64,000 bases of DNA from Marchantia polymorpha subsp. ruderalis (Eukaryota; Streptophyta; Marchantiopsida; Marchantiales; Marchantiaceae), in assembly GCA_037833965.1 (NCBI GenBank), contig AP031358.1, positions 6,580,001 to 6,644,000 of the forward strand. The letters are read 5' to 3'. The notes below the pieces were generated by a model that searched no databases, had not been told where the DNA came from, and was given only the letters and a program-made list of their open reading frames with translations. The translations under genes were made by a program, and so were the position numbers. Position 1 is the stretch's first letter; each line of letters starts with the position of its first letter. Shown here piece after piece: positions 993 to 31,116 of this stretch.

Positions 993-1174
993 TGTGGTAC
1001 CCCACTTTTGGTATTTTTGAGGAAATTAAAACATTTTTGGAAAACTGTACCGCGGCAGCAGTGTAAATAGCCTTCGGTGCATCAAAACAGAGTGAATTCG
1101 GAAGATCGCAGAGACTCATAAGTCTCTGCGATCTTCGAGATTCCTCTAGCGCCGAAGGCGCTAGAGGAATCCTT

Positions 1175-1294
1175 CAGAATTGGGTCAATCCCCAAACGCC
1201 TCGACTTGGTTAGGGTCTTGTTGGAAAGACCTCAACGCGCTGATTCCAACGAGCCCAAGAACGCCACAAACAAATGAGGACTCCGGGAGTTATG
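1175..1294 (+). repeat. 119-bp module, B1 copy
   Basis: This is the single copy in the B1 U3. It is one base longer than the usual 119 because of an indel near its left end. The central inverted arms are partly degraded. See 4667-4785 for the description of the module. Confidence 0.75.
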
Positions 1295-3504
1295 AAGGTC
1301 GCAAGATACTCAGCTTTCCGCCTTCGCACAGGCGAAGAAAGTTTTGTCCTATGCGCGGACGAAAGCAGTTCGCCTACGCGTAGGCGAAATAGGGTTTTGA
1401 CGTAGGCGCGAATGTCGCCTACGCACAGGCAAGGAAACCTCTGCCCAGGCGGACGAGCGAAGGCCGCCTGCGCACAGGCGCTTCGGCGTCGGCGGGGAAT
1501 CCGCCTTCGGCCCTAGAAATGCGCCTTCTGGGGTAGAAATGGTACGGCGCCTTCCGCACCAGCGCAACAGCGCGGACGGGCGAGGAACCGCCGGAGTAGT
1601 AAAATCCGTACGGACTGTACAGACGGGACGGAAGGATGCGCTCTTGGTCGGACGGAGTTGCGGCGGCGAGAGCGCCGACGGAGAGACAAGAAACGGACAG
1701 TTTGGACGGAGTCTGTTGACCGCGGTCAACGCCTTCCGCGCCAGCGCAACAGCGCGGACGGAATTCGCCTACGCGCAGGCGAGCGCCTTCGCACAGGCGG
1801 GTGAAGTTCCGCGCCGGCGGAGATTCCGCCGGGGATTCCGCCTACGCACAGGCGGGAGTTTAACTTTTGTCCGATGCGCGGACGTTCGCCTTAGGCGGAG
1901 GAGGATTGGCCGAGGAGCGGTACGAACGAGTGTACCGCGCAAGGCGGAAAAGACGCCTTCGGCGCTGCGCACCCATGTCCGCGGCGTTCAACGCTCGCGG
2001 AGTTCAAATTCGCCAATTCGAGCGTGTGAGTTAAATCGGCGTCGGCGGAGCGTGAAGCCGCGCGTGAGAACGGAGACCGTTTTAGCGTAGAGCCGGCGCG
2101 GCCATCAAGTGATTCGACCCTCACGATCAAGAGCCGACCATGATCTTGGACCGGGAGACGGAGAGAGCCCCATTCTTGAATTCGCGATTCCATTTTCTAG
2201 TGCGAGCTGCGCGCGTCCATCTGCTAGCTGCTAAGCATTCCAGACATCGCCGCGCAGAGGATTACTTGTTGATTGAGAGAGAATTGAGTGCGCGCGATTT
2301 GGAATTGAGTGAGATTAGAGTTTGCAGAGGGAGCAAGGAGCTCGAGCGGAGCAGAGAGAGAATTAGCGAGCAAGCGAATTCCAAGAACGCAATGTCGAAG
2401 ATGAACCGATTGCGGATGCTGCCGCTCCGGCTTCCACAGAACGGGTTGCGCGCCTACGAGGAACGGCTGATTGCAAGAAAGCTCGATTTCTTGCTGTGGG
2501 GATGGAACTACATTTGTGTGGATATGGTCCGCGAGTGGCTGGAGCCACAGCGACTGTAATAACCCACTAAAGGCTAAAACTGCAATATAGTGGTAGAAAG
2601 GTCGAACCCACAGGGACAGAGGAACACATAGGGTACAAAGTGTCACGTTTTAACAGACTATTGAGGAGTTTGAATTCTCAGGCAACTGTCACTCCCAGAA
2701 ATACTGCAAGTGTCCACTCTGAGCGCACTCGGAGGTCGCACAGTGCAGCGTAACACACACACACACACACACACACCTGAAACTACAGAAACACACCCCA
2801 GAGATCCGTTAGGACCTCTACTCAAGATTTCAGGGGGGGAAAGTCTCTCGCGAGCACACTCGGCGAAGCTGCGGGTAGTGACTTCCAACTCCGGCTTTTA
2901 CAACACTTCCACTAGCTTGCTGCTAGTGTAGGAAACCCGGTTTGGACTGCCTACTTCGGATCGAAGTCACTCATACGCGGTGAACAACACTCTCAACTCA
3001 CAAAACGCGCAGAGAACACAGGTCCGCACTGAAGGACTCACTGAGAAACATTCCAGTAACACAACAACAGTCTATTGAAGAGTTTGAATTCTCAGGCACT
3101 TGTCATTCCCAGAAATACTACAGGGGTTACCCTCAAGGCACCTGCTGCAGCGTAACCTGAATTTACAACCAAGGCTTACACGAAGTAGCAAAACTTCACT
3201 TTGGCATTCAGGGGAAAAATCCCAAAGGAGTACAATCAGAAAGAAACACTCGAAGGTGTAGGGGCGAAACTGTTCAAGTATCTAACTAGTCACTGGCTCT
3301 GAGCATCGGCAGTCACCCGCAGGTGCAGTTCCGAACTACTCAAGTCTCTAACCAATGTACTAGCTCTGAACATTCGGCCGAAGGCCTTCAGCTACAAAAT
3401 GCGGAACGCTAAGTTGTAACTCCTCGTGCGTGGTGACAGAACTCAAGGACACAAACACGCAAAGGAAATGGGTTCCTGATCTGCACTTCTGATGGGAAAG
3501 AACC

Positions 3505-3533
3505 CCAGGCAAAACGCCTGGAACTATTTTATA
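3505..3533 (-). promoter_or_regulatory. TATA box and start-site hairpin of C
   Basis: On the minus strand TATAAAA (3527-3533) is followed by CCAGGC, a five-base loop and GCCTGG (3505-3521). The stem carries the C:G pair where the A family has A:T. Confidence 0.72.
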
Positions 3534-3980
3534 CCTTCTAAGTCCTAACTAACACTACACTGCACTGCCATGGTGCGAGCCGCAACAGATCCTACACCTG
3601 AGGAGTCGGCGGCTGCCTTCCCCTCTAACTTACAACCTAAATCTAACCCTAACCCTAAATCTGAATCCTAAGCCTACTGTACAGAGCCGCCAGCGCCTCT
3701 CCATCCAAGATCTGAGGCTGAAAATTTGCACGCATGCGTGGCCGGCCGAGATCAACGGCCCCACAAAACTTCAGATCCATCCGACCGTCCATCGCAAAGA
3801 TATGGGCCCCGCAAGATCTCTAAACCTAGGCCAAAATTCCTTCTCCAAAATCCGAGGACTGTGGGTTCCACGCGTCCTACACGCAAGCCGCCTACTCGCA
3901 GGCCGCCTTGGGCCGAAGGCCCCCTCTAACTGTTAACGCCGAAGGCCTCACGCCTAACCATGACAGCCGCTTTCGACGCT

Positions 3981-4490
3981 CATAACTCATTGACGCCTTA
4001 TCCGTTTCAAGAGATCTTGGTCTCGTTGGAACCAGCTCGTTGAGTTCTTTCCAACGAGACCCGAATCAAGTCAAACCGCTAAGAATTGAGAAAGTTATGT
4101 TGGTTTTACTCTTCCGCCGAAGGCGTTCGCCTATCCACAGTCCCTCCGCGGCGCTGACCTGGCCGTCCGCGGCGCTGAGCTGGCGCAGAAGGCGCCGTAC
4201 ACTTTCTACCTCACAAGGCGCATTTCTAGGGCCCAAGGCGGATTTCCCGCCGACGCCGAAGCGCCTGTGCACAGGCGAACGCCTGTGCGCAGGCGAACTT
4301 CCTTCGTCCGCGCATAGGACAAAACTTTCTTCGCCTGTGCGCAGGCGGAAAGCTGAGTATCTTGCAACCTTCATAACTCCCGGAATTCTCCTCCGTTCGT
4401 GGCGTTCTTGGGCTCGTTAGAATCAGCGCGTCGAGCTCTTTCCAACGAGACCCGAACCAAGTCGAGGCGTTGCGAATTGAGAAAGTTATG
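3981..4490 (+). repeat. Two 119-bp modules of C
   Basis: Copies occupy 3981-4099 and 4372-4490, each exactly 119 bp from CATAACTC to AGTTATG. The spacer between them holds mini-palindromes of the GCCTGTGCACAGGC type and U3 sequence shared with B1 and B3. Confidence 0.85.
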
Positions 4491-4666
4491 AGGGATTCAC
4501 TCTTCCGCCGAATGCACTCTCCCGCATCGCCGAAGGCGTTGACCCGAAGGCGTTGACCGAAGGCGTCTACCGCCCAAGGCGCATCTTCCGGCGGTTCTTC
4601 CGCCGAAGGCGTACCGCCAAAGTCGCTCTACCGCCGAAGGCCCCCCCATTAGTAACTTCCGACACT

Positions 4667-4785
4667 CATAACTCAGTGATCTCTCATTCGTTTCACAAGT
4701 TCTTGGGCTCGTTAGAACCAGCGCGTCGAGCTCTTTCCAACGAGACCCGAAGCAACTCAAAGCGTTACGAATTGAGAAAGTTATG
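4667..4785 (+). repeat. 119-bp near-palindromic module (reference copy, third in C)
   Basis: The unit starts CATAACTC and ends AGTTATG, which pair with each other. Its centre holds inverted arms, GGGCTCGTTAGAA at about positions 39-51 and TTCCAACGAGACCC at about 69-82, symmetric around position 60. The outer and inner arms together make the whole 119-bp unit an imperfect hairpin. I count 17 copies in the window: three in C, six in A3, and one in each of B1, B2, B3, B4, the two A1 LTRs and the two A2 LTRs. Nearly all are exactly 119 bp, though the sequence between the arms varies. All lie in U3, in the same orientation relative to their element. No open frame runs through it. Function is unknown. 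Confidence 0.88.
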
Positions 4786-7604
4786 AGTGATCTACCGCCG
4801 AAGGTGCTCGAAGCGGATCCTGCAGCATGAACCGCCCGTTCCGTCCCAAGCGTCCCACTGTGGGCTAAGCCCAAAACCCCTTGACTGTCCTCGATCCTCT
4901 TTTTACTCTGGTTTCGCGTACCGATTACTATTTACAACTGCTGCCGCGGTACTTACTATTCAAAAATGTTTTAGTTCCGACAAAAAAACAAAAAGTGGGT
5001 TACCACAGCGACCACCTTCGCGCGGATTACGTCCGCATGTCGATCGGTGGACCGTCCAAGATTGGGCGCAGGCATTGGGAAGGTGTGCCGGCATCGAAGG
5101 GCACCTCCTCTTTGATAGTGAGAGCGTCAAGGTGTCGAAGCAGGACGAGGCGCAATTTGTGGAGTTGTTCAAGCGGGAGAGGTCTACCAAGAATGGGTAC
5201 AAGACCCGCGACTACAAAGATCGCTTCCGCTGAACTTTGGCGACGGCGCTGCTACAATTACTGCAGCCACACCGCGGCTGCTACATCACCTTGTGGCAGG
5301 TTTCTTTTGTGGAGCTCATCATCGAGGGAGCTCCAATTCACTGGGCGAGCATCCTGCACAGAGTGATGCGGCAGCACGCGTTTGAGGAGAAGGGGGGAAC
5401 TCTCAATCACCTCTCCACTTTCTTGATCAATTTTTATCGACAGCGAAATTGTTTGACCGCGGCGGAGCTTGCTCGCTTTCCGCCATTGTCCGTCGACCAT
5501 CCCGGGAAGTATGTGCGGGATAACGAGGTCGACACCTACGCAGAGGAATCACCAGCTTCTACTCCACCAAGGCGGAGGGACGAGGGAAGAAACACACACG
5601 CAACAAGAGTGCCACGGAAGCGTCGATGGAGAGAGGAGTCAGAGGAGGAGCAGCATCGAGAACCCACTGCTCCCATTCGACAGCGGCCAGTGCACGAAGT
5701 GTGCAGCCGGCCGAAGCAGAAGGCGCGCAGGCTTGTGTTACCAGCCAACAGCGCGGACACGGCGACGATCGCCACGGAGTAAGGAAGTGCGTCGCCGGAG
5801 AGGAACGAGGGAGCGCGGACGTCTGCAGGAGCGACGGACCATGCTGCACCTCCGACGGACGAGAGGCGGCCTTCGGGCCAAGGGCCTCCGGAGTTACCAC
5901 GTGCGATGCGGACGAGCGTTCCGCCTGCGCACAGGCGAGCTTTAGCAGACAGGCGACCCCAAGCGGATGTGGACCTCCGCCTACGCGTAGGTAGAGAAAG
6001 TTCGCCTGCGCACAGGCAGGATTCACCCCCGGTCCAACGTAGCAAGGGGAAGGAGCCGGCGGAAGATCCGCCTTCGGGTCAAGGGCCTTCGGGACCAGAC
6101 CCTCCGACGTACAACGCGCCGCGATTTGCGCCTTCGGCGCCAGGGCCTTCGGGTCAACGAGATGTGAGCAGGGAGCGTGCGGAGACCGCCCCTTCGGCGG
6201 GTAATCCGCCGGTAGATGCGCCTTTGGCGGTAGGGCCTTCGGGGCCAGGGACATCGGGCGAGCGGCCTCCGGCTATGTTGCCTTCGGCGATAGACGCCTT
6301 CGGCGCTACGCCTGCGGCAGACAAGGCGCCGGTATTTGCGCCTGCGCACAGGCCAGACACAGCCCTCGCGCAGGACCGATCGAGGGAGCATGACCTAACG
6401 GAGTAGCAGATTGTCTGTCCGCGGGACGAAATTCGGGTGCGCGATGCGCAATTACACCCCGCGCAGACACCCTCCGCTCGATCGCCTTCGGCAGCGGACG
6501 TCGGCGGCGAAGAGGATACAGTCGAGGATCGACAGGCGGATGATGGGGATGTAGCACGGCCACATTCACCCACCGCCTTAGACATTTTAGCGGGGAGCAG
6601 CGAAGCTGCAGGAGTGTCTTCGGAGGCAGCACCCGTAGACGACGTGCAGCCCCACTCGGGGCAGTCCCCAACGCAATCAATGGCGACTGAAATCCTTCCC
6701 TCGGATGATGACGACGGGGGCTCCACAGAAGCAATGTCGGGGTCAGGAGATACCGAGGAGGAGGAGGAGGAGATTGTTGGAGCGCCGGCGGCGGCGCTCT
6801 CTGAGCAGGTAATACCGTTGCTGAAGTACTTGGATCGTAAATTTGATAAATACGCCGATCCACTCCAGCCGGGATCCTACATCGAATTAGTGCGCAGGCG
6901 GACTCGCACTAAAGTCCACACCAGCAAGCTACTAGCTAGGGTGGACCGGGAGCTGAAGGAATTGCGGGAGAAGCATGCCTGTTTGTGGGAACAGTACAAC
7001 CTTGTGCGGAAATCGCACGCCCTCGACAAGATGAAGAAGGAGAGACTGGAAGAGCTCACCAGGGATGTGATGAAGACCACGACAGATTTGATTTCTGAGA
7101 AAACTCAAAATCAGATTCTGTCAGAGGAGCTCGTGCGACAGACGCGGTTGTTGGCGGAGTGTCAGCTCGCACGACAGGCGGATGAGGATTTAATCCGCAG
7201 GCTACAGTCGGAGTGCGGGGAATTGAGAGCGCAGCGTTGTGGTAACACACTTTTTGTTTTTTTTGCAGAATTTAAACAATTTTAGAAAACTAGTACCAAA
7301 GCAGTGTTTGTAGCTAGAGAAGGGTACGCTAAATAGAGTGGATTGATGAGATCGTCACGAGGGCACAAAGAATCACGTAGTCGGATGTACCAACGCCAAC
7401 GTCTTCGGCGCCTTCGGCAAAGGCTTCTTTTTGAGGTGTCTCTACTCACGCGCCTCTAGCGTACAAGGAAGCTACGCTTCCGGCGCAGACACCTCAGGAG
7501 GAGGTTTTGCTAAAGACGTCAGGAGAAGGGCCCGGACCTCTAAAGGCATCCGACCATGAGTGCGCCTTCGGCGAAGCGCCGCTAGCGCGGAAAGGGAAAA
7601 CCTT

Positions 7605-7723
7605 CATAACAATCGGGATACACGGTAGATCCAGTTGGTTGAAGTTGCATTAGAAAGAGCTCGGGACGCTCGTTCTAACGAGCCCAAGAGCGCCGGAGAT
7701 GGATCAGGAATGGAGAAGTTATG
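7605..7723 (+). repeat. 119-bp module, A1 5' LTR
   Basis: This copy is exactly 119 bp, from CATAAC to AGTTATG. The central arm pair is partly decayed to the variant TTCTAACGAGCCC. Confidence 0.82.
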
Positions 7724-8291
7724 AGCGTCGGAAAACTCGTAGCCGGACATGCGCCGTTCGCGCTAGGGTTCACAGCCGGAAAGGATTCCCGTACGCCCTC
7801 GGCGATGCGCCTTCGGCGGAATCACGCGCTCACAGGAGGAAACCAACTCAGAGTCGGAAGCGCCTTTGGCGGCTGTTCATGGAAGGAAAGCGCCGGTCGG
7901 ATGTACGCCTCCGACGTGGCGCTGACGGCCGGATGCGCTGGCACGAGTTGCGCTGACGGATATGCGCTGGCAGCAACGGACGAGGCATAAAGGACAAAAT
8001 AGGCGGTACGACTGCGCGCCGGCGTAATTCGCTCCGGCTGGATGTGCGCCTCCAGCAAGGCGCCGACGGATAATGAACGCACCAGCGGCGACACGCCTCC
8101 GGAGAAGGGCGGGTTAGGAAAAGACAACAGGGCCGACGTATACCCTGCAGCGGACTCGAGTCCGGAAGGTGGCGGCGGCGGGAGAATTCAACGTTTAAGC
8201 ATGCGAATGCGCGCAAGGCGGAGACGTGAATTCGCGCATGCAAAGGGCGAACCGTTAAGCCGTATAGCCGGCTGCGTACGTTGCAACCAGT

Positions 8292-8310
8292 AAGAACGTT
8301 GGACGTTCTT
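8292..8310 (+). promoter_or_regulatory. Perfect 8-bp hairpin in the U3-gene leader
   Basis: AAGAACGT and ACGTTCTT are separated by TGG, about 280 bases upstream of the U3-gene start codon. The same palindrome is present in the leaders of the A1 3' LTR and both A2 LTRs. B-family leaders lack it. A role in translation or RNA folding is only a guess. Confidence 0.35.
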
Positions 8311-8588
8311 GAAATCGGAGAAGAAAAGACTGCGCTCCAGTCTCATTCTCTCATTCTTGACTTTGCAATTTCCAGTTCCAAGATTACGCGCAAGGGCGGA
8401 GCGACCTGCAGTGAGAGTAGAGAGTGCGGAGACGAGTTGCACAAGGATCTTGGCGGACCTCGAAAGAATTGGGAGTAGCGATCTTGAACGAGCGCAGAGA
8501 GAGTGAGCAGTCAGTGCTTGAGTGGCCGACGCGCAGTGGCGATTGTGAGAGAGTGAGCGAAAGAACGTTTGTGTGTGCAGGCAACGCA

Positions 8589-11144
8589 ATGTCGAAGGTT
8601 CCCCAACTGCGAGTGTCTCCACTCAGGGTGCCGCAGATCGGTCTACGCGCATTTCAAGATGTGCTGACGAGGCTGAAGCTCGATTTTCTCCTCTGGGGGT
8701 GGAATTGGACGTGTCCGGAGATGGTGCGCGAGTATCTGCAAGAGAGACACAAGCCTTCTCGCGGATTTCGCCCACACCCAGAGAGATGGGAAATTTGCAA
8801 TTGGGCGCAGGTGTTGGGCAGGTGTGCCGGCGAGGAAGGGGATCTCCTCTTCGAGGCCGATAGCGTGAAGGTGTCCCAGGAGGAAGAAGTCTCTTACAAT
8901 GAGCTCTTCAAAGTGGCCAGACATCCCAAGAACGGTTTCCGGACTCGGGATTACAAGGATCGATTGCGGAGAAATGTCGCGACAGCATTGCTGCAGATAT
9001 TGCAGCCGACCAACACAGCTTACATGCATGGTTGGCAGGTAGAGTTCGTGGAGCTAGTGTTGTCAGGAGCTCCGGTGCATTGGGCACGGCTCCTGTGGAA
9101 GGTGACGCGCCAACATGCGCAAGAAGAGAGGGGAGGAACGCTCAATCATCTATCGCCTTACTTAATCGTGTTTTACCGGGCGATGGGATGTTTGACGAAT
9201 GCTGAGAAAACTCGGTTTCCGCAGCTGAGCCGGTCTTATCCAGGTAGATATTCGAGGGAGGCCGAAGTAGACACGGATCCGGACGAGGAACCTGCCAGTA
9301 CGCCTCCGGCTCCGGCTCCAGCCAGAGCAGCAGAAGAACGTCGAAGTGAGCGCATTCCGCGCAAGCGGAAGTGGGATGAGAGACCTGAGGACAGGCAGCC
9401 GGAAGTACCAGCTGCGCCGACTCGTGGTCGGCCCACCCCCGAGCCTCATAGTCGACCAAAACAGAGGGCACGCAGGATGCCAACTGTTACTGAGGAGACC
9501 AGGCGAACTCCGACCCGGCGGAATCTCACACAGGAAGAGATAATCGCTCAGGTTCTAGGGAAGACGGCAGAAACCTCTGCACAGAAGGCACCACGGCCTT
9601 CGGGAGGAGATGGACGGACTGACAGCCGGCCGACTGCGAGTCGGATGACTGAAGGTCGACAGACGGAAGGAAGGCCAACTGAACGGCGCGTTGAACCGGA
9701 CAGCAGGCCGGAAACGGAAGAGAGTTTGGCTGACGAGCCAATAATCCTCAGAGGGTCGTCTTCGGCGGAAGGCACTTCTGGAAGAACGCCCCCAACAAGC
9801 AGGCCAAGTGGAGTCAAGACGCGCAGGGTGTATCCGACTCCCAGTCGGACAACTGCTGGTCGGCCGACTGCGAGTCGGACAACAGAGAGTCAGCCGGATT
9901 CGCCGACTGCGAGACGGATGGGGCCAACGACCAGTGTGCGGACGCCTTCGGCGGACGCACCTTCAGCAAGGACACCTTCCGCGCAGATTGCGCCGGAAGG
10001 ACAGGCAGCAGAAGCGGGCGGTGCAAGAGTGACAAAAGTCACTGCGGCGTCGACCCCTTCACAAACCGAAGATCGAGCCGGAACAGGGGCTCAAGCAGTG
10101 GGATCTCCCACTGCCCTGGATATTTTAGCAGGCAGTGGAGCAGCAGTCGCAGCAGAAGCTGCTGCGCGCCACAGTTCCAGGGAGTCGCCAAGGGATTCGG
10201 TGGCGACTGAGATCCTCGAGACTGAGGATGAGACGAGCTCGGAAGAGCAAGAAGAGGATTCGGTGCAGAAAACGCCAACAGGGGTGCTGTGCGAACAGAT
10301 AGTTCCACTCCTGCGATATCTGGATCGCAAGACATCCAAATACGCAAGTGCCTTAAAACCGCAGTCTTATGTGGAGACAATCAGGCGAAGGACGAGGAGC
10401 AAGGTGGCAAGGTGGGCCTCTAGATGCGGAGTATATGTGGATAGGAACACCGCCCTCCGACAACACCTGGCGGTCACCCAGAAGCTGTACCAAGCCTTGC
10501 AGCAGCAGAAGGAGGATGCGGCGACGAAGAGTCAGGCGGAGGCCGAACTAATACGGGCAAAGATCGAGTCGGAACTGCAGGAGGAGCGGAGACAGAACGA
10601 AGTCCTAGCAGCCGAGCTTGCGCGCCAGACGCGCGCCTTAGAGGAAAGTCAAAGAGCCCGGAAGGAGGATGAGGAGTTGTTGTGCAACTTGCAAACCGAG
10701 TGCTCGGATTTGAGGACACAACGTGCGGATTTAGAAATGCAGCTGGCAGAGGTGGAGAGCAGCTGCAGGGCACGAGGAGAGTTGGCGGCACGGGTGACTC
10801 GTTGTCTAAACGGATACACCCATTGGGAGGTGGCAGCTCAAGAGAGGGTTACACTCCGGGAGTTCGAGCTTCGGGCGGCGGCATTGACGGAAGGTGACAG
10901 TCGGAGTCGGCGGCGAGTGGCAAGAAAATTAGAAACTTTCTTGTCGGGTGCGCGCGACACTATGGCGCACTTGCAGTCGGAAGTCACTGCAGCACTCCGA
11001 CGCCTGGGGTTACGCAGCCGGTCGGAAGACTGGCAAGGTAGAGATAGTACGCGGAGCAGTCCGGCGCGCAGGAGGCGCAGCACCGGATCTGCTGAGTGCA
11101 GTAGAGTAGTTTGGTTTCGCGCAGATGCTGCGAGTGGTAGATAG
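8589..11144 (+). CDS. U3-encoded accessory protein, A family (A1 5' LTR)
   Basis: The 851-residue protein is encoded wholly inside the LTR. The first in-frame ATG is 8589; the open frame reaches further upstream but only with non-ATG codons. Residues 1 to about 235 form a compact domain with conserved blocks LDFLLWGWN (31-39), WAQVLGRCAG (72-81), RTRDYKDR (118-125), HWARLL (164-169) and LNHLSPYLI (185-193). Residues about 236-560 are rich in Pro, Ser, Thr, Arg and Glu and look disordered, with conserved islands ALDILAGS and ATEIL and an acidic run. Residues about 565-851 hold a conserved PLLRYLDRK block, a long coiled coil (about 620-740) and a GYTHWEV to AECS tail rich in Arg. There is no signal peptide or membrane segment, so it is not an envelope protein. 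The blocks are shared with the B family although the middle has diverged, which suggests selection on the protein. Function is unknown. Confidence 0.85.
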   Translation: MSKVPQLRVSPLRVPQIGLRAFQDVLTRLKLDFLLWGWNWTCPEMVREYLQERHKPSRGFRPHPERWEICNWAQVLGRCAGEEGDLLFEADSVKVSQEEEVSYNELFKVARHPKNGFRTRDYKDRLRRNVATALLQILQPTNTAYMHGWQVEFVELVLSGAPVHWARLLWKVTRQHAQEERGGTLNHLSPYLIVFYRAMGCLTNAEKTRFPQLSRSYPGRYSREAEVDTDPDEEPASTPPAPAPARAAEERRSERIPRKRKWDERPEDRQPEVPAAPTRGRPTPEPHSRPKQRARRMPTVTEETRRTPTRRNLTQEEIIAQVLGKTAETSAQKAPRPSGGDGRTDSRPTASRMTEGRQTEGRPTERRVEPDSRPETEESLADEPIILRGSSSAEGTSGRTPPTSRPSGVKTRRVYPTPSRTTAGRPTASRTTESQPDSPTARRMGPTTSVRTPSADAPSARTPSAQIAPEGQAAEAGGARVTKVTAASTPSQTEDRAGTGAQAVGSPTALDILAGSGAAVAAEAAARHSSRESPRDSVATEILETEDETSSEEQEEDSVQKTPTGVLCEQIVPLLRYLDRKTSKYASALKPQSYVETIRRRTRSKVARWASRCGVYVDRNTALRQHLAVTQKLYQALQQQKEDAATKSQAEAELIRAKIESELQEERRQNEVLAAELARQTRALEESQRARKEDEELLCNLQTECSDLRTQRADLEMQLAEVESSCRARGELAARVTRCLNGYTHWEVAAQERVTLREFELRAAALTEGDSRSRRRVARKLETFLSGARDTMAHLQSEVTAALRRLGLRSRSEDWQGRDSTRSSPARRRRSTGSAECSRVVWFRADAASGR

Positions 11145-11177
11145 GATAGCGTAGTGCTAGTTAGGATCTTTTGAGAG

Positions 11178-11206
11178 TATAAAGTAGATCAAGGCGTTTT
11201 GCCTTG
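11178..11206 (+). promoter_or_regulatory. LTR TATA box and start-site hairpin (A1 5' LTR)
   Basis: TATAAAG (11178-11184) is followed six bases later by CAAGGC, loop GTTTT, GCCTTG (11190-11206). Transcription of the genomic RNA would start around 11205-11215. That places the U3 gene entirely upstream of this promoter in the 5' LTR and downstream of pol in the RNA. Confidence 0.75.
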
Positions 11207-11848
11207 GGACTCTTCCAGTTTCGGAAGTACAGATCAGGAACTCACTTTCTTGGCGTGTTTGTGCATTTTGGTCCTGGCACCACGTAGAGAAGCTGCAGCA
11301 TAGCGAAGTTACCGTATGTTGTAGTTGAAGGCCTTCGGCTGAATGTTCAGAGCTAGTACCCGGTTAGAGACTTGAGTAGTGCGGATCTGCACCTGCGGGT
11401 GATTTCTGATACTCAGAGCCGGCTGCGAGTTAGATACTTGAACAGTTCCCCCTTACTCCTTCGAGTGACATATCCTGATTGTACTCCTACGGGAAGTTTC
11501 CCCTGAATGCCAATGTGAAGTTTCATTACTTCGTGTAAACCTTGGTTTGTAATTCAGGTTGTGTGTGTGTTACTGGATCGTGTTTTCAGTAAGTTCTCAG
11601 TCGGGTCTGCACTCCCTGCGTTTTGTGTGATAGTCGAGGGTGACGTCCACGGCGTACGTAGAGGCTTCGTTCCGAAGTGAGAAGTCCAGTCCGGGTACCC
11701 CCGCTAGTTCCTGGCGGAAGGGCAGTAAAAGCCGGAGTGGGAGGCACTTCCTGCAGAACCTCTGAGCGAACTTACGAGACACTTTCCTCCTGAAATCCGA
11801 AGCGGAGGTCCTGACCGACCTCCGAGTTGTGCTTTTTGCCAGTTTCAG

Positions 11849-11866
11849 GTGTGTGTGTGTGTGTGT
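11849..11866 (+). repeat. GT dinucleotide tract in U5
   Basis: There are nine GT units after TTTCAG. The same tract, with different lengths, occurs in every LTR of the window (12 units in B1 at 23041-23064, and CA runs in the minus-strand copies), always in the same place in U5. Confidence 0.85.
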
Positions 11867-12124
11867 TGAGTGACCAAGCTGTACCGTGCATCCTCCGAGC
11901 ATCCTCCGAGTTGAGTTCCTCCTCCGAGTCGAGCCTCCGAGTCGAGCACTACAGTATTTCTGGGAGTGACAGTCGCCTAGAATTCAAACTCTACCAAAAG
12001 TCTGTTAAACGTGACACTTTTACTCTGTGTGTTGCCTCTGTCCCTGTGGGTTCGATCTTTTTACCACCATACTGCAGTTTTAGCCTTTGGTGGGTTATTA
12101 CATAAGGAGCCGACAACTTCTTTT

Positions 12125-12143
12125 TGGCGCCGCTGCCGGGGAC
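12125..12143 (+). other. Primer binding site, tRNA-Asp type (A1)
   Basis: TGGCGCCGCTGCCGGGGAC matches the complement of the 3' end of plant tRNA-Asp with one apparent mismatch (C for T at position 9). It lies 22 bases after the LTR end, a longer gap than in most elements. The identical site is in A2. Confidence 0.85.
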
Positions 12144-12185
12144 AGTGCGTCAACACCAGAAACCTTGAGCAGCAATGCTCGGTGA

Positions 12186-15002
12186 ATGTCGACGAGCGAT
12201 AGTGTGGGAAACCTGAGTGCGAGAGCCACACGGAAACTCCGTCGAGATTCAGAAAAAGCCGTGGAAACAAAACGGCGAACTAAAAAGAAGACTCCCGGTG
12301 AGGACTCTGCAGAAAGATCGCCATCACCGACTACTGGAAGACAAAGGTGTTCCAGTTCACCTACCGAGAGCATTGAGCTAACGATTCTATTGGACATCCC
12401 TCCGACAGGAACTCTTCCTGAGTTTGGCCAACCTAGGATCAGTCCGTCGACAGGATCACCGATGGCAGAACATCAAGCCAATCTCCGCCAGGTGTTTACC
12501 CAACCTACCACCAAACATTCGTATCCAAGATACACGGGAACGGGCGACGACGATGATGCAGATTCATACATAAAGCTCTTCGAGTCTGTCTCCATCGCCA
12601 ATCGTGAGACCAGTGATGAAGACAGATTACGAATCTTTCCTAGCCTGCTACGCAAACGAGCGCGTAGCTGGTACAACCATGAGAGCACCGACCCCACTGG
12701 CATCCGGACCTGGGCTCAGCTCAAGGAAAAGTTTCTGAAGCGGTTCCGCGAACTCGGATATGACAGTCGAGTTCTGACCCGGCTTCGAAATCTTCGACGC
12801 GAGCGGAAGGAGAATCTTCGAGACTACACTGAGAGATTCCAAGACCTCCTAGATCGAATTCCGAAGACAGGCCCGGGAGAACCGTATTCGGTACAACAGG
12901 CAGTGGATTGGTATGTGACAGGGCTCCCAAGAGAAATGGAGACCTTCTGTAGGAGAGGCAAGACTGACACAATCCAAGATGTGATAGCTTCCGCGGAGAC
13001 CTTTGAGACGTCAACCCTTGACACTCGAAGACGCGACCGACGGTCGACGAAGAAGAAGTCGCAAGGCGGACGTCGGAAGAGAAGGAACTCGCCTTCCTCG
13101 ACAGAAGAATCAAGCTCCTCCGAATCAAGTTCTTCCTCGGAAGAGGAAGAGGACTCGTCATCTTCAGAAGAAGAAAGACGGAAGAAGAAACGCAGTGCGA
13201 TCAAGAAGAAGGATCGAGGTAAGGGAATCCCAGTGAAGACTCAAGGGGACATCGCAGCCAAGGTAGACAACCTGGTGAAGAATTTTGCGGACCTGAAAGT
13301 TCATGTAGTGGGAGGCCAAGACCGACGTAAATCACCTGCAAGACAACGAGCGAATCTCTGGTGTACTACGTGCGGACAGGTGGGACATGCCAACACGGAG
13401 TGCATGTCCGCGAGGCCATCTTACCCAGTGAATGCGGTCGAATGGGCACCACAGTGGGAGAACCCTATGTATTATGCTGAGCAGGTGGAGGACACCGCCT
13501 ACTCGGTACAGACAGCTCCAGCTACAACTCCGAACCCACCGGTGCATATACCGCGCTTTGTTCCGAGGGAAATGGCGGGTACACTCCCACCAAGACGCAT
13601 GGCACCTCCAGGAAATCACACAGGAAATCACCGACCTCGACCACAATTCGATGGTTGCTACAACTGCGGAGACATGGGGCATTACGCGCCAAGTTGTCCC
13701 CACCCGAGGAAGCCAATGGGGTATGCACCATTGTGCAGCAATTGCAAGAAGTCCGGACATACAGCAGCTGAATGTGACCAGCCCCAAATCCCTAGGCCAG
13801 CCGTGCGTTTCGTATCAACACCTGGCAAGGAAGAGGTGCAGGTCAACCAGGTAGAACTGAGTCTGGACCCAGCTGAAGGAGACGAAGTATGGCCAGAGGA
13901 AGAAGTAATGTGCGGCCGGGTAGAAACCCGAAGTTCGAAGAGGAGAGGAGAAGGCCATGAGGACACTCGCCGCCTCGAGCGTAGGGAAGAGAGGAGGAAG
14001 TCTAAAGAAGTTAGAGAAGGCCAAAGGAGAACGCCAAGTACACCTCCGGCTATGAGAAACACCCAGCCGGAGCAGAACTCAGAAAAGGCGGACAGGTATT
14101 CAGAAGAGTTCCGGACTCGAGATTACCTTCCGGACATCAAAGATGAGGTGAGTCACCTCATCAAGGAAGCACTGGGCGCCGGAATGACATCCGACGACCG
14201 GAAGGCAGTTAGGCCCCCTACACCCCTTCCGACCGCGAGTACAGGGAAACTTCCGGCCGTGACTTCCAGCACTCCCTACGACATAGTGAAAGACATGGGG
14301 AGCCAGAGGGCAAATATTTCCTTCCACCAGTTGTTGGAAGACAATAAGACGTACAGGAGGATGCTGATGCTTTCGTTGCGCCGACCACGCAAACCCCGAA
14401 AAGAGAAACTTCCGGCTGTGTACAGAGTGGAAGGAGGAGACCTGGGACCTCCAGAGATCGAAGTAGAGATCGGAGGCTGCGTCATTCAGAAGGTACCAGT
14501 GGACTCCGGCTCGGGCGTGAATATCATGACCGAGGAGACAGCGAACTCCTTGGGGTTCCAGACCTTCGAGCCTACATCCCGAGTATTGCGACTGGCCGAT
14601 CAAACACGCAGAATGCCACTAGGAATGTTGAGCAATGTGAGAACCAACATTGGAGGAGTGGACTTTCAACTGTCCTACATAATACTGCAACCTCTGATGA
14701 AGAAAGGTTATGATGTGCTGCTTGGCAGACCGTGGCTATACGAAGCCAAAGCAAGGTGTGACTGGAGTAGGAAGAGATTACAGTTCCGTAGCCCTGCGGA
14801 CCCTCCGACTGTCATTACCGTACCGTGGACCAAGGTACCCCATGAGGGCGAAACACCTTCCACCACCTCCGGTTACACAACCGGAGGGGAGACCAGCTCA
14901 ACATGCACTTCAGAGACCGAAACGTCGGAAGACTTTGTGGGCTACGTCACTTGCTGCTCCATTGAGGAGGAAAGAGACGAGGTGTATCCGGATGAGGAAT
15001 AG
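12186..15002 (+). CDS. gag-pro: Gag-protease polyprotein (A1)
   Basis: The 938-residue product starts at ATG 12186, 43 bases after the primer site. Residues about 105-270 match a retrotransposon Gag domain (RARSWYNHE at 158-166, then WAQLKEKFL). A Ser/Glu-rich and Lys-rich stretch (about 280-345) follows. Three CCHC zinc knuckles are visible: C393-C396-H401-C406, C491-C494-H499-C504 and C517-C520-H525-C530. The aspartic protease has DSGSGVNIM with catalytic D773 and the closing block DVLLGRPWL (843-851). The frame ends at UAG 15000-15002, but the same frame stays open into pol. Gag packages the RNA, and protease cuts the polyprotein in the particle. The frame is intact. Confidence 0.95.
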   Translation: MSTSDSVGNLSARATRKLRRDSEKAVETKRRTKKKTPGEDSAERSPSPTTGRQRCSSSPTESIELTILLDIPPTGTLPEFGQPRISPSTGSPMAEHQANLRQVFTQPTTKHSYPRYTGTGDDDDADSYIKLFESVSIANRETSDEDRLRIFPSLLRKRARSWYNHESTDPTGIRTWAQLKEKFLKRFRELGYDSRVLTRLRNLRRERKENLRDYTERFQDLLDRIPKTGPGEPYSVQQAVDWYVTGLPREMETFCRRGKTDTIQDVIASAETFETSTLDTRRRDRRSTKKKSQGGRRKRRNSPSSTEESSSSESSSSSEEEEDSSSSEEERRKKKRSAIKKKDRGKGIPVKTQGDIAAKVDNLVKNFADLKVHVVGGQDRRKSPARQRANLWCTTCGQVGHANTECMSARPSYPVNAVEWAPQWENPMYYAEQVEDTAYSVQTAPATTPNPPVHIPRFVPREMAGTLPPRRMAPPGNHTGNHRPRPQFDGCYNCGDMGHYAPSCPHPRKPMGYAPLCSNCKKSGHTAAECDQPQIPRPAVRFVSTPGKEEVQVNQVELSLDPAEGDEVWPEEEVMCGRVETRSSKRRGEGHEDTRRLERREERRKSKEVREGQRRTPSTPPAMRNTQPEQNSEKADRYSEEFRTRDYLPDIKDEVSHLIKEALGAGMTSDDRKAVRPPTPLPTASTGKLPAVTSSTPYDIVKDMGSQRANISFHQLLEDNKTYRRMLMLSLRRPRKPRKEKLPAVYRVEGGDLGPPEIEVEIGGCVIQKVPVDSGSGVNIMTEETANSLGFQTFEPTSRVLRLADQTRRMPLGMLSNVRTNIGGVDFQLSYIILQPLMKKGYDVLLGRPWLYEAKARCDWSRKRLQFRSPADPPTVITVPWTKVPHEGETPSTTSGYTTGGETSSTCTSETETSEDFVGYVTCCSIEEERDEVYPDEE

Positions 15003-15039
15003 CAACTAGCAGCCGGACTGGGCAGAAGCGAAATCAGTC
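15000..15039 (+). promoter_or_regulatory. UAG readthrough site between gag-pro and pol
   Basis: The stop and the next two codons read TAG CAA CTA, which fits the UAG-CAR-YYA context known from TMV-type leaky termination. No other stop occurs between it and the pol domains, and no ATG is available at the start of pol. A possible short stem, GACTG/CAGTC (15016-15020 with 15035-15039), lies 13 bases downstream and is kept in A2. Confidence 0.75.
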
Positions 15040-16918
15040 ACACAGAGGGGATTGTTGACCCGAGTGATTGCTGCGAACTGCAGCTCAGTCCAGGTAAAGG
15101 CTTGAAGGTGTCAAGCCAGGTACAAGGCGAAGAGTTGAACAGGGTACAGGCGTTTCTTCGCCAGTATGAGGATGTCTTCGCATGGAAGATTGAAGACATG
15201 AAAGGCATACCTGCAAGGTATGGAGAGCACAGGATCGACTTGTTGGACGAGGCAGTTCCGGTTCGCCAACGCCAATACAGGCTCAACCCAAAATATTCAT
15301 TATTGGTGAAGGACGAAATCGATAAGTACCTGAGCGCAGGAATCATCTACCCGGTACTTAGTAGCGAGTGGGTGTCGCCTATCGTGATCGTGCCCAAGAA
15401 ACTGACGGGTAAGATCCGGGTGTGCCAGGACTTTCGAAAGCTGAACGCAGCAACGAGGAAGGACCATCACCCTCTTCCTTTCACGGACTCTATTTTAGAC
15501 CATGTAGCAGGGCATGAATGCTACAGTTTCCTAGACGGATTTTCCGGCTACAACCAGGTGTCCATCAGGGAACAGGACAAGGACAAAACAACCTTCACAA
15601 CCGACTGGGGAACCTATGCTTATCACAAGATGCCGTTCGGTCTGTGCAACGCGCCAGCCACGAGTCCAGGTACGCGGACTTATACAGGTTTCTGCTCACA
15701 CTCCAATGTCCGGAAGGATTGGATGCGGAGCAGCGCACAGTCTTCGTTCATAAAGCGGGACCTTACCAGCTCCAACAAGGGGTCTTGTTCAAGAAAATGG
15801 CAGACGAGAGGTTGTGCAGATGTCTAGAGGAGTCTGAAGTACCGCGAGTTGTCAAAGCCATGCACACAGAAGACGCTGGTGGTCACTACGCCACCAGAAA
15901 CACAGTGACCAAAATTGTGAATGCAGGATACTGGTGGCCGACGATGTTCAAAGATGTACACGACTACGTTCGCAAATGCGACAGCTGCCAGAGGACGGGA
16001 AGGCCGACTCCGACCACGAGATGGCCTCTTACACCAATAATGCCATTGGCACCATTTGAAAAGTGGGGGATCGACTTCGTGGGACCAATACAACCTGTCA
16101 CTAAAGGCACGCGCAGGCGCTACATATTGGTAGCAACAGACTATGCGACCAAGATGGTGGAGGCAGAAGCCACAAGGCACGACGACGCAGCCGCAGTAGC
16201 ACGGTTCCTATTCGAATCCATCATCACCCGCTACGGGTGCCCACTAGAAATAGTCAGTGACAGAGGAACGCACTTTCTGAATCAGGTGATAGAAAGTTTG
16301 ACGCGGCACTTCCAGATTAAGCATCGGAAGACTACTCCATACAACCCCAAGGCAAATGGTCTGACAGAGAAGTCCAATGGATTACTCTGTAAGATACTCC
16401 TCAAAGTGACTGTAAACCATGCTCATGACTGGGATACCAAGCTACCGGCCGCCTTATGGGCATATAGAACGGCAGAAAAAGTCACCACCAGGCAAACACC
16501 TTACTTCCTAGTTTATGGGCAGCATCCGATCTTACCCATCGAATTCGAGATACCTACCAAGAGGACCTTAGATCAGAGAAGGCTGGACGCGGAAGAAAGT
16601 CAGGCATATCGACTGCAAGAGGTAATGGCACTGGAGGAAAGACGTCAAGAGGCCGAAGATCGGACAAAGCAATTACAACTCAGGCGGAAGGAGAAGTACG
16701 ATCGAAGGCTCAAACCAGTACTGCTGGAGAAGGGCGATTTGGCTCTGCTATACGATAGCAGACATGCTAGATTTCCAGGCAAGCTCCACTTGAGGTGGAT
16801 GGGACCTTACAAGGTGATAGAAGTTTTTCCAAATGGATCCATCCAACTCGCAGAACTGACGGGAGAATGGTTAGGCACCCGCGTGAACGGATGGCGTCTG
16901 AAGAAATACCACGTGTAA
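15003..16918 (+). pseudogene. pol: pol with 925-bp deletion (A1)
   Basis: Downstream of the leaky stop the frame encodes the N-terminal part of reverse transcriptase up to LCNAPA, including the first catalytic block FLDGFSGY. At about 15660 the sequence jumps to the linker before integrase. Compared with the 2742-bp A2 frame (53182-55923), 925 bp are missing, covering the IDDF active site, the thumb and all of RNase H. CGCCAGC occurs at both deletion ends in A2 and once at the junction here. Since 925 is not a multiple of three, integrase (zinc finger, DDE core and GPY-like end) is out of frame, readable to 16918. A1 cannot make active RT or integrase from this copy. Confidence 0.93.
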
Positions 16919-16942
16919 ATGTTCGCGTGGGCGCTCACAATT

Positions 16943-16953
16943 GAGGAGGGGGG
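16943..16953 (+). other. Polypurine tract (A1)
   Basis: GAGGAGGGGGG is followed by CA and then the TG of the 3' LTR. It primes plus-strand synthesis. A2 has the identical tract. Confidence 0.9.
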
Positions 16954-17322
16954 CATGTGGTAACACACTTTTTGTTTTTTTTGCAGAATTTAAACAATTT
17001 TAGAAAACTAGTACCAAAGCAGTGTTTGTAGCTAGAGAAGGGTACGCTAAATAGAGTGGATTGATGAGATCGTCACGAGGGCACAAAGAATCACGTAGTC
17101 GGATGTACCAACGCCAACGTCTTCGGCGCCTTCGGCAAAGGCTTCTTTTTGAGGTGTCTCTACTCACGCGCCTCTAGCGTACAAGGAAGCTACGCTTCCG
17201 GCGCAGACACCTCAGGAGGAGGTTTTGCTAAAGACGTCAGGAGAAGGGCCCGGACCTCTAAAGGCATCCGACCATGAGTGCGCCTTCGGCGAAGCGCCGC
17301 TAGCGCGGAAAGGGAAAACCTT

Positions 17323-17441
17323 CATAACAATCGGGATACACGGTAGATCCAGTTGGTTGAAGTTGCATTAGAAAGAGCTCGGGACGCTCGTTCTAACGAG
17401 CCCAAGAGCGCCGGAGATGGATCAGGAATGGAGAAGTTATG
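17323..17441 (+). repeat. 119-bp module, A1 3' LTR
   Basis: This is the 119-bp counterpart of 7605-7723 in the 3' LTR. Confidence 0.82.
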
Positions 17442-18306
17442 AGCGTCGGAAAACTCGTAGCCGGACATGCGCCGTTCGCGCTAGGGTTCACAGCCGGAAA
17501 GGATTCCCGTACGCCCTCGGCGATGCGCCTTCGGCGGAATCACGCGCTCACAGGAGGAAACCAACTCAGAGTCGGAAGCGCCTTTGGCGGCTGTTCATGG
17601 AAGGAAAGCGCCGGTCGGATGTACGCCTCCGACGTGGCGCTGACGGCCGGATGCGCTAGCACGAGTTGCGCTGACGGATATGCGCTGGCAGCAACGGACG
17701 AGGCATAAAGGACAAAATAGGCGGTACGACTGCGCGCCGGCGTAATTCGCTCCGGCTGGATGTGCGCCTCCAGCAAGGCGCCGACGGATAATGAACGCAC
17801 CAGCGGCGACACGCCTCCGGAGAAGGGCGGGTTAGGAAAAGACAACAGGGCCGACGTATACCCTGCAGCGGACTCGAGTCCGGAAGGTGGCGGCGGCGGG
17901 AGAATTCAACGTTTAAGCATGCGAATGCGCGCAAGGCGGAGACGTGAATTCGCGCATGCAAAGGGCGAACCGTTAAGCCGTATAGCCGGCTGCGTACGTT
18001 GCAACCAGTAAGAACGTTGGACGTTCTTGAAATCGGAGAAGAAAAGACTGCGCTCCAGTCTCATTCTCTCATTCTTGACTTTGCAATTTCCAGTTCCAAG
18101 ATTACGCGCAAGGGCGGAGCGACCTGCAGTGAGAGTAGAGAGTGCGGAGACGAGTTGCACAAGGATCTTGGCGGACCTCGAAAGAATTGGGAGTAGCGAT
18201 CTTGAACGAGCGCAGAGAGAGTGAGCAGTCAGTGCTTGAGTGGCCGACGCGCAGTGGCGATTGTGAGAGAGTGAGCGAAAGAACGTTTGTGTGTGCAGGC
18301 AACGCA

Positions 18307-20862: not shown

Positions 20863-20895
20863 GATAGCGTAGTGCTAGTTAGGATCTTTTGAGAG

Positions 20896-20924
20896 TATAA
20901 AGTAGATCAAGGCGTTTTGCCTTG
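20896..20924 (+). promoter_or_regulatory. TATA box and hairpin (A1 3' LTR)
   Basis: TATAAAG at 20896-20902 and CAAGGC/GCCTTG at 20908-20924 match the 5' LTR copy. From this LTR the promoter would read into the B1 remnant and host DNA. Confidence 0.72.
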
Positions 20925-22281
20925 GGACTCTTCCAGTTTCGGAAGTACAGATCAGGAACTCACTTTCTTGGCGTGTTTGTGCATTTTGGTCCTGGCACCA
21001 CGTAGAGAAGCTGCAGCATAGCGAAGTTACCGTATGTTGTAGTTGAAGGCCTTCGGCTGAATGTTCAGAGCTAGTACCCGGTTAGAGACTTGAGTAGTGC
21101 GGATCTGCACCTGCGGGTGATTTCTGATACTCAGAGCCGGCTGCGAGTTAGATACTTGAACAGTTCCCCCTTACTCCTTCGAGTGACATATCCTGATTGT
21201 ACTCCTACGGGAAGTTTCCCCTGAATGCCAATGTGAAGTTTCATTACTTCGTGTAAACCTTGGTTTGTAATTCAGGTTGTGTGTGTGTTACTGGATCGTG
21301 TTTTCAGTAAGTTCTCAGTCGGGTCTGCACTCCCTGCGTTTTGTGTGATAGTCGAGGGTGACGTCCACGGCGTACGTAGAGGCTTCGTTCCGAAGTGAGA
21401 AGTCCAGTCCGGGTACCCCCGCTAGTTCCTGGCGGAAGGGCAGTAAAAGCCGGAGTGGGAGGCACTTCCTGCAGAACCTCTGAGCGAACTTACGAGACAC
21501 TTTCCTCCTGAAATCCGAAGCGGAGGTCCTGACCGACCTCCGAGTTGTGCTTTTTGCCAGTTTCAGGTGTGTGTGTGTGTGTGTTGAGTGACCAAGCTGT
21601 ACCGTGCATCCTCCGAGCATCCTCCGAGTTGAGTTCCTCCTCCGAGTCGAGCCTCCGAGTCGAGCACTACAGTATTTCTGGGAGTGACAGTCGCCTAGAA
21701 TTCAAACTCTACCAAAAGTCTGTTAAACGTGACACTTTTACTCTGTGTGTTGCCTCTGTCCCTGTGGGTTCGATCTTTTTACCACCATACTGCAGTTTTA
21801 GCCTTTGGTGGGTTATTACAAGCGTGCGGAGGCCGAATCGCAGTTGGTGGTAATTGAAGATGATCGCAGGCGAGAGGCAGATCGCACGAAGGAGGAGATG
21901 GCGAGGCGTGTCGCCCACTGTCTCAAGGGCTACGCCCACTGGGAAGTGGCGGCGCAGGAAAAACTCACACTGCGTGAGTTAGAGCTTCGTGCAGCCGGGT
22001 TGTTGACAGGTGACAGTAGGAGTCGGCGGAAGGTGGCGAAGAAGTTAGACACTTTTCTGTCGAAGGCGCGGGATACCATGTCCACCCTCAAGGTGGAGGT
22101 GTCCACGGCGTTGCAGCGTTTGGGACTGCGCAGTCGAGCAGAAGATTGGCAGGGTAGGGAGTTAGTGCGCGGCAGTCCGTCGCGCAGGAGGCGAAGCACA
22201 GGGTCTGCGGAGTGTAGTGTAGCGTGGTTCCGTGCAGGCGTGTAGCGTAGTGCAGTGTAGTGCTAGTTAGGATTTAGAAGG

Positions 22282-22310
22282 TATAAAGTAGTTCAAGGCG
22301 TTTTGCCTTG
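22282..22310 (+). promoter_or_regulatory. TATA box and hairpin (B1)
   Basis: TATAAAG (22282-22288) is followed by CAAGGC, GTTTT, GCCTTG (22294-22310), just after the end of the broken U3 gene. Confidence 0.72.
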
Positions 22311-22689
22311 GGATCTTTCCCAACATCAGAAGTGCAGATCAGGAACTCATTTTCTCTGCGTGTTTTGTGTCCTTAGTTCTGTCACCACGCACGAGGAGCT
22401 ACACCTTAGCGATCCGCATTGTGTAGCTGAAGGCCTTCGGCCGAATGTTCAGAGCTAGTACATTGGTAAGAGACTTGAGTAGTTCGGATCTACACCTGCG
22501 GGTGATTGCCGATGCTCAGAGCCAGTGACTAGTTAGATACTTGAATAGTTTCGCCCCTACACCTTCGAGTGTTTGTTCCGGATTGTACTCCTTCGGGATT
22601 TTTCCCCTGAATGCCAAAGTGAAGTTTTGCTACTTCGTGTAAGCCTTGGTTGTAAATTCAGGTTACGCTGCAGCAGGTGCCTTGGGGTA

Positions 22690-23165
22690 ACCCCTGTAGT
22701 ATTTTTGGGAATGACAAGTGCCTGAGAATTCAAACTCTTCAATAGACTGTTATCGTGTGTTACTGGAATGTTTCTCAGTGAGTCCTTCAGTGCGGACCTG
22801 TGTTCTCTACGCGTTCTGTGAGTTGAGAGTGTTGTTCACCGCGTATGAGTGACTTCGATCCGAAGTATGCAGTCCAAACCGGGTTTCCTACGCTAGCAGC
22901 AAGCTAGTGGAAGTGTTGTAAAAGCCGGAGTTGGGAGTCACTACCCGCAGCTTCGCTGAGTGTACTCTTGAGAGATCTTTCCCCTGAAATCTTGAGTAGA
23001 GGTCCTAACGGATCTCTGGGTTGTGTTTATGTAGTTTCAGGTGTGTGTGTGTGTGTGTGTGTGTTACGCTGCACTGTGCGACCTCCGAGTGCGCTCCGAG
23101 TGGACACTTGCAGTATTTCTGGGAGTGACAGTCGCCTGAGAATTCAAACTCCTCAATAGTCTGTT
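22690..23165 (+). repeat. Internal duplication in the B1 R-U5 segment
   Basis: A block of about 55 bp that starts AGTATTTCTGGGAGTGACA and runs through GAGAATTCAAACTC to CTGTTA occurs twice, near 22697-22750 and 23112-23165. B2 and C have the same pair. The A family has only the downstream copy. The GT tract at 23041-23064 lies between the two copies. Confidence 0.8.
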
Positions 23166-23282
23166 AAACGTGACACTTTGTACCGTGTGTGTTCCTCTGT
23201 CCCTATGGGTTCGACCTTTCTACCACTATATTGCAGTTTTAGCCTTTAGTGGGTTATTACAAGGATTCAGATCCCAACATAC

Positions 23283-31087: not shown

Positions 31088-31116
31088 CAAGGCAAAACGC
31101 CTTGATCTACTTTATA
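31088..31116 (-). promoter_or_regulatory. TATA box and hairpin (A3)
   Basis: Minus-strand TATAAAG (31110-31116) is followed by CAAGGC, GTTTT, GCCTTG (31088-31104). Confidence 0.7.

Follow-up and report, generated by a model that had tools for sequence, protein, structure and literature searches.

The sag gene of mouse mammary tumor virus (MMTV) lies in U3, the unique 3' part of the long terminal repeat (LTR), and is doubled by reverse transcription. Sag lengthens the MMTV LTR to about 1.3 kb (PMC3026287; this and the other papers given by PMC number are cited from part of their text). In contrast, where plant LTR retrotransposons have extra genes, these are described from the internal region (review PMC7264820); Grande GENE23 is nuclear and has its own promoter, PvRetro13 ORF2 has an SMC domain, and LTRs in a Retand survey measure 315-1,194 bp (PMC7264820; PMC11963269). 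Since a plant survey reports both extra open reading frames (ORFs) in 3,372 Ty3/gypsy elements and non-chromovirus LTRs of up to ~5 kb (PMC6317226), long LTRs and extra ORFs are both already known; the cited text does not state if any of those ORFs sits in an LTR. Here we describe, in 64 kb of the liverwort Marchantia polymorpha subsp. ruderalis (contig AP031358.1, positions 6,580,001 to 6,644,000; hereafter the window), the Ty3/gypsy element A1 and its relatives, whose LTRs carry a large gene, placed by prediction in U3, that purifying selection has kept protein-coding.

The original prediction, made from the window's letters, had singled out 7238-12102 as a gene-bearing LTR of a group 4.8-5.4 kb long, with borders fixed by target-site duplications (TSDs), primer site and polypurine tract. 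We found this segment is exactly the 5' LTR of A1 (4,865 bp, TG..CA ends, TSD AGCGT), which has 4 differences from the 3' LTR (99.92% identity in self-comparison), and the borders hold, with the gene inside them. The LTR pair of the second element, A2, has 2 differences over 4,828 bp (TSD CCTGT). Perfect 5-bp TSDs flank both A elements, the family A solo LTR and the family B solo LTR of the window; their LTRs measure 4,828-5,359 bp and have a TGTGGT start and an ATTACA end in common. The primer binding site starts 22 nt past the A1 5' LTR; the tRNA-tail pattern has 29 matches in the genome, all with matching letters, and both of the two fetched are tRNA-Asp (ARAGORN). An Rfam scan over A1 gave no match. 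With an LTR pair, TG..CA ends, TSD, primer binding site, polypurine tract and the order gag, protease (PR), reverse transcriptase-RNase H-integrase (RT-RH-IN), these are Ty3/gypsy LTR retrotransposons.

In the LTRs examined from families A, B, B' (an older B type) and C, the gene is in sense orientation with its ATG 0.86-1.5 kb inside the LTR. We found the gene stop 33-36 bp ahead of TATAAA in A, B and B' (33 bp in A1), and the gene match of a decayed family C copy ends 15-50 bp ahead of it. TATAAA occurs once per LTR in the four sequences examined, one each from A, B, B' (the 5,101-base locus L031) and C, and a highly conserved stretch follows directly. The gene is located, as first proposed, in U3, between the LTR start and the predicted TATA box. 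Since the gene is within the LTR, each element has it twice, and since the pol stop is 37 bp from the 3' LTR, the site of extra ORFs in other plant elements is gone.

All five copies thought to be intact are intact, four of 851 codons in A and one in B. The length proposed for A stands; that for B (1034 codons, from an upstream ATG) does not, since the 84-codon extension shows no clear constraint between B and B' (ratio of nonsynonymous to synonymous substitution rates, dN/dS, 0.81; bootstrap 0.44-1.79). Hence, translation more likely begins at the ATG that B has in common with A, which gives 950 codons, and the extension is not counted in the protein.

The arrangement recurs across the genome. 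A search with the LTR's R (repeat) and U5 (unique 5') parts listed 40 full-length matches, of which 10 have no partner; 15 pairs on the same strand, that of A1 among them, are spaced 9.7-10.7 kb; among 44 scored copies of the B gene listed, five pairs are ~11.15-11.2 kb apart. An intact gene is also present in solo LTRs: three of family A, each flanked by a TSD, and the window's B solo LTR.

Family A was sampled by similarity to non-coding R/U5, a search that favors young copies; 20 of the 40 full-length matches listed were fetched, and three with a broken or partial LTR match (L003, L006, L014) were dropped. We found 16 of the 17 full-length LTRs keep all 851 codons, and the remaining one (L001) has a single stop at codon 649. 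In 21 A LTRs (these 17 and the window's four, representing 19 insertions), all 15 indel events are located beyond the gene, whose 2,556 nt are free of them; the chance of this, if indels were evenly spread, is <1e-4 (5.7e-5 as computed for 13 events, before a recount gave 15). Third codon positions differ at 3.1% of sites between A copies and first and second positions at 1.2% (~2.6 times). Within A, dN/dS is 0.26 (NG86, 190 pairs, 20 copies, L001 omitted). Within B it is 0.135 (NG86, 28 pairs, 8 copies: seven of the 44 scored copies listed plus the window copy), a value from a protein-score ranking (35 of 41 full-length copies without a stop) that favors intactness and low dN.

The comparison of A with B called for originally could be run, and its synonymous sites are saturated (pS ~0.75; pN 0.36); B was also compared with B'. 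There dN/dS is 0.31 (0.25-0.38; dS 0.40), relative to 1.17 and 1.19 in wrong-frame controls. By part, it is 0.12 in the N-terminal (N) block, 0.16 in the linker, 0.57 in the P/S/T-rich middle, 0.12 in the acidic part and 0.40 in the C-terminal (C) block; dN/dS is not near 1 over the conserved blocks. The B' sequence, L031, was found by DNA and is the sole intact one among 8 fetched of 40 scored copies listed. Between A and B, pN of the LTR gene (0.36) exceeds that of gag-PR (0.24) and pol (0.06), so the gene evolves faster than both. Purifying selection has kept a protein-coding gene in these LTRs.

The predicted protein consists of a conserved N block, two basic clusters, a P/S/T-rich middle of variable length and the C block. 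The clusters (in A, RKRKW and PKQRARR; B has near-identical ones) are ~30 residues apart and look like nuclear localization signals (NLSs), putatively directing the protein to the nucleus. Since AlphaFold models the C block as a single 148-residue helix, with a predicted local distance difference test (pLDDT) score of ~90 or more over the first 100 residues, this block is a probable coiled coil. Transposase_28 (PF04195), Transposase_32 and PMD gave no match to 11 N blocks at E 10. Searching the genome, we found no match to PF20167, one to PF10536 (E 0.45) and three to PF04195 (E 0.9-9.8), none above cut-off; control genomes also had nothing above cut-off (one weak E. coli PF04195 match), so a remote kinship with these families may have been missed.

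The N-block motif LDFLLWGWN, back-translated, has 2,302 + 2,225 = 4,527 exact matches in the 241,466,482-base genome, a count of motif copies rather than intact genes, and the reversed motif has 0. Nine places, picked for varied codon strings and thus non-random, all encode N-block relatives: two belong to family A (identities of 93 and 98%) and one to a separate family, C, with 67% identity to A. Identity is 54-68% for another two; the last four are interrupted and for the most part match A, B or B' at 38-51%. The decayed family C copy has LTR ends 4,156 bp apart with the gene between them and TATAAA at the usual place. The N and C blocks, which A and B were said to keep and do keep, both persist in a family D copy (43% and 27%). 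Copies of C are 85-91% and those of D 70-78% identical to the query, and judged by this divergence they are old; N-block searches with C and D gave no close pairs marking complete elements. Since the same layout and blocks recur in A, B/B' and C, the gene is, on this comparison, older than the split of at least these families.

Our preferred explanation, which we consider reasonably probable, is that this selected sense gene in U3 encodes an accessory factor, is expressed as an mRNA from its own promoter and came to lie in U3 through a shift of the polypurine tract. The factor would serve the element and may be nuclear, as the N domain, basic clusters, P/S/T-rich middle and coiled coil suggest; its role could be regulation, particle import or counter-silencing, which are not told apart. 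The mRNA would most likely start in the 0.86-1.5-kb LTR head and end at the poly(A) site that R of the same LTR provides; we lean slightly toward such an own promoter. With its own start and poly(A) site, each LTR, solo ones too, would be a complete gene cassette. Reverse transcription copies the U3 gene to both element ends, and solo LTRs can keep it intact. As to origin, the polypurine tract would have arisen or moved to directly behind pol, transferring to U3 an accessory ORF that formerly separated pol from the LTR; one round of reverse transcription would suffice.

A bolder version, which we regard as doubtful, would make every LTR, solo LTRs included, an autonomous cassette of promoter, accessory gene and poly(A) site. 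Together, as many as thousands of copies would make up a reservoir of an element-encoded nuclear regulator that acts in trans, survives LTR-LTR recombination and can license complete elements or counter their silencing; this would be the first case of a plant retroelement with an accessory gene encoded in U3.

Several results weigh against the preferred explanation. For selection, there is the sampling of B by protein score, the weak constraint on the middle of the protein and the breakage of seven of the eight fetched older B' copies, as expected of old insertions. For an accessory, perhaps nuclear, factor, the spacing of a classical bipartite NLS is narrower than ~30 residues; the N-block AlphaFold model is unusable (pLDDT 37), so the helices drawn are unreliable; the N block has no relative by sequence in the PDB and nothing above cut-off in Pfam; the whole protein likewise has no Pfam match above cut-off (SKG6, DUF7761 and Inj_translocase are far below, E 0.02-0.07); and fold comparison of the C block with the PDB gave weak helical matches alone (best E 1.6). 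For an own promoter, no clear promoter motif upstream of the gene is common to all families. For the LTR setting in older families, the 5-mers flanking the C copy (AATGC and CGAAC) form no TSD, and no recognizable LTR ends were found for the D copy.

Expression could instead follow MMTV sag, with the genomic RNA from the 5' LTR spliced from a donor in the R/U5 leader to an acceptor close ahead of the 3' LTR's gene copy and no promoter of the gene's own, an alternative we take seriously while thinking it less probable. The acceptor of MMTV Sag transcripts is in the 3' LTR, slightly upstream of the ORF (PMC3026287). In the Marchantia LTRs, both A and B retain CAG/GT-type leader sites, and the ATG of A, B, B' and C has an AG no more than about a dozen nt away. 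However, the place of this AG is not fixed and AG is common in this purine-rich stretch, B and B' have a weak pyrimidine tract, and the 0.86-1.5-kb LTR head would be left without an obvious task.

That the LTR captured a host gene, rather than holding an old gene of the element, is improbable. The copies read in detail, among the matches listed, lie in LTRs or LTR remnants, although LTR copies saturate the lists and could hide a single host gene; in favor of capture, no relative turned up in Pfam, nor did the N block have one in the PDB by sequence.

If the genomic transcript started before the gene, the gene would be in R, present twice in the RNA, and would serve the gag mRNA as an upstream ORF, for which Ogre ORF1 is the comparison. 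Large 5' ORFs are known in long-LTR plant elements (Retrosat2 ORF0, PMC3485330); however, the sole TATAAA lies past the gene stop (33-36 bp in A, B and B', close behind in C) with the highly conserved stretch after it, which makes this placement quite unlikely. From the gene stop onward, B (35960-36968) and B' (L031) are 93.75% identical (768 columns, covering R/U5 and the last U3 bases), relative to 77% in the LTR head; this high leader identity may reflect strong constraint or recombination.

An env-like gene of the Athila/Bagy2 type displaced into the LTR would share the sense orientation behind pol of env-like additional ORFs (aORFs) (PMC7264820). We found no hydrophobic segment in the protein (highest 19-residue hydropathy 1.22 in A, 1.14 in B and 1.35 in B'); with no membrane segment and no Pfam match above cut-off, this very unlikely candidate was rejected. 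An ORF that is non-coding and open by chance or youth, for which the few differences within the A1 and A2 LTR pairs (4 and 2 bases) and the broken B' copies might speak, was dismissed outright given the codon-position bias, the absence of gene indels, the two blocks recognizable down to family D, and a B/B' dN/dS far from the wrong-frame values near 1.2.

Table 1. Features of the window, by position in the 64-kb stretch
Feature	Position	Strand	Basis
Element A1, 5' LTR, gene in U3	7238..12102	+	TG..CA ends, TSD AGCGT
Element A1, 3' LTR	16956..21820	+	self-comparison, border reading
Element A2, 5' LTR, 4,828 bp	58935..63762	-	TSD CCTGT
Element A2, 3' LTR	48317..53144	-	self-comparison, border reading
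Family A solo LTR, split by B solo LTR plus other sequence	30192..40733	-	TSD CAACA
Family B solo LTR, 5,359 bp, nested inside A solo LTR	31610..36968	+	TSD GTTGC
Fragmented LTR of the older B type (B'), pieces 1149-2554, 5003-7237, 21823-23261; A1 nested in it; gene decayed	1149..23261	+	self-BLAST, TSD, tblastn
B' LTR part (42190-45616), then B LTR part (45617-48298); genes truncated	42190..48298	+	self-BLAST, tblastn
Family A LTR gene, A1 5' LTR copy, 851 codons, intact	8589..11144	+	ATG common with family B
Family A LTR gene, A1 3' LTR copy, 851 codons	18307..20862	+	ORF, tblastn
Family A LTR gene, A2 5' LTR copy, 851 codons	59891..62446	-	ORF, tblastn
Family A LTR gene, A2 3' LTR copy, 851 codons	49273..51828	-	ORF, tblastn
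Family B LTR gene, 950 codons from ATG shared with A; frame open from ATG at 32855	33107..35959	+	ORF, comparison with A
TATAAA of A1 5' LTR, sole one in LTR; probable U3/R boundary	11178..11183	+	matching place in A, B, B', C
TATAAA of B LTR	35996..36001	+	position after gene
Primer binding site, tRNA-Asp(GTC)	12125..12142	+	18-nt perfect complement of tRNA-Asp 3' end plus CCA
Polypurine tract GAGGAGGGGGG	16943..16953	+	two bases from A1 3' LTR
A1 gag-protease ORF, 938 aa, stop context UAG CAA CUA	12186..15002	+	Pfam Retrotrans_gag and zf-CCHC above cut-off; Asp_protease_2 slightly under
A1 pol without residues 188-492 (RT end and whole RNase H), integrase present	15102..16918	+	tblastn with A2 pol; Pfam rve, Integrase_H2C2
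A2 gag-protease ORF, 942 aa, stop context UAG CAA CUA	56023..58851	-	Pfam
A2 pol ORF (RT, RNase H, integrase), same frame as gag	53182..55923	-	Pfam

The internal regions of the elements were read for gag and pol. In A2, a 942-aa gag-PR (Asp_protease_2 E 1.3e-4, slightly under cut-off) is followed by a 913-aa RT-RH-IN. In A1, two pol matches overlap by 10 bp at the deletion (15653-15662), which suggests the pol loss is an internal deletion by microhomology; A1 may have been mobilized in trans, or pol may have been deleted after insertion, as its LTRs differ by just 4 bases. In both A2 (56017-56025, minus strand) and locus L021 (3425-3433), gag-PR and pol share a frame and are parted by a stop codon. 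The stop context is UAG CAA CUA in A (15000-15008, plus strand, in A1) and UAG CAA UUA in B, and the tobamovirus leaky-stop consensus is UAG CAR YYA. Since the in-frame stop contexts match this consensus, pol is probably made through stop-codon readthrough. We found no additional RNase H (aRH), the mark of most Tat members, in the element's pol.

Smaller features of the sequence were also seen. The palindrome CCTGTGCACAGG is repeated in and near B-type LTR sequence (48290-48320, 4257-4298), and one of these sites received the A2 insertion (TSD CCTGT). The B LTR has an additional partial copy of its own U5 end at 36375-36464 (GTATTTCTGGGAATGACA... GAGAATTCAAACTC), and A is without this copy. 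On contig 1, matches come in equally spaced sets of three (~2.33, 2.72 and 3.09 Mb), as expected from the M. polymorpha Tak-2 U chromosome, which is 5.6 Mb long and has a triplicated middle (PMC13078153).

A selected gene of 2.5-2.9 kb within U3 changes the notion of an LTR. If the proposed explanation is true, solo LTRs would be possible gene carriers rather than dead relics, the gene would be doubled with each insertion, and the protein would be tied to the element's own promoter. Annotation that treats LTRs as non-coding would probably miss such a gene. With >4,500 motif copies in a model liverwort, the role of plant retrotransposon accessory genes becomes directly testable.

Like MMTV sag, the Marchantia gene is a presumed accessory gene inside the LTR, in U3. 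Sag is a much shorter gene for an unrelated membrane protein; it belongs to a vertebrate retrovirus and has known spliced transcripts, whereas the Marchantia gene is described here from its sequence. Among 5.39 million open papers, searched for genes or ORFs inside LTRs and for elements of Marchantia or liverworts and judged by titles and abstract starts (subscription papers and preprints being outside this scope), retroviral genes within LTRs (MMTV sag) were listed and no plant case, in keeping with the early view that a U3 gene is unusual beside the internal extra genes of plants and recalls sag.

Among plant elements, the 3' reverse aORFs (aORF-3R) of Retand, Grande and RIRE2 also encode an accessory protein 3' of pol in Tat-type elements, and the architecture of the Marchantia protein recalls TRP28/SMC-domain proteins and GENE23 (PMC7264820; PMC11963269). 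However, those aORFs are antisense and internal, between pol and LTR, whereas the Marchantia gene is sense and inside the LTR, and no sequence kinship of its protein with TRP28 was detected with 11 N blocks. Retrosat2, RIRE3 and RIRE8 are likewise of the Ty3/gypsy type; their LTRs reach ~3 kb or more, and they have an additional ORF that evolves faster (PMC3485330). Unlike the LTR gene, this ORF0 is upstream of gag-pol and is treated apart from the LTR. The lack of aRH is shared with described Marchantia Ty3/gypsy elements, and the cited part of that Tat survey, which includes Marchantia, makes no mention of an LTR gene (PMC10508981). Coe1 of Beta vulgaris resembles the present case in title wording alone ('transposase gene within putative LTRs'), as its gene lies between two 169-bp putative LTRs and not inside one (PMC2426827). 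The env-like aORFs of Athila and Bagy2 are also extra sense ORFs behind pol; theirs are internal, some with membrane segments, whereas the Marchantia gene is in U3 and without one. Accessory genes of LTR retrotransposons are already known, and what appears to be new here is the place of such a gene, in U3 of the LTR.

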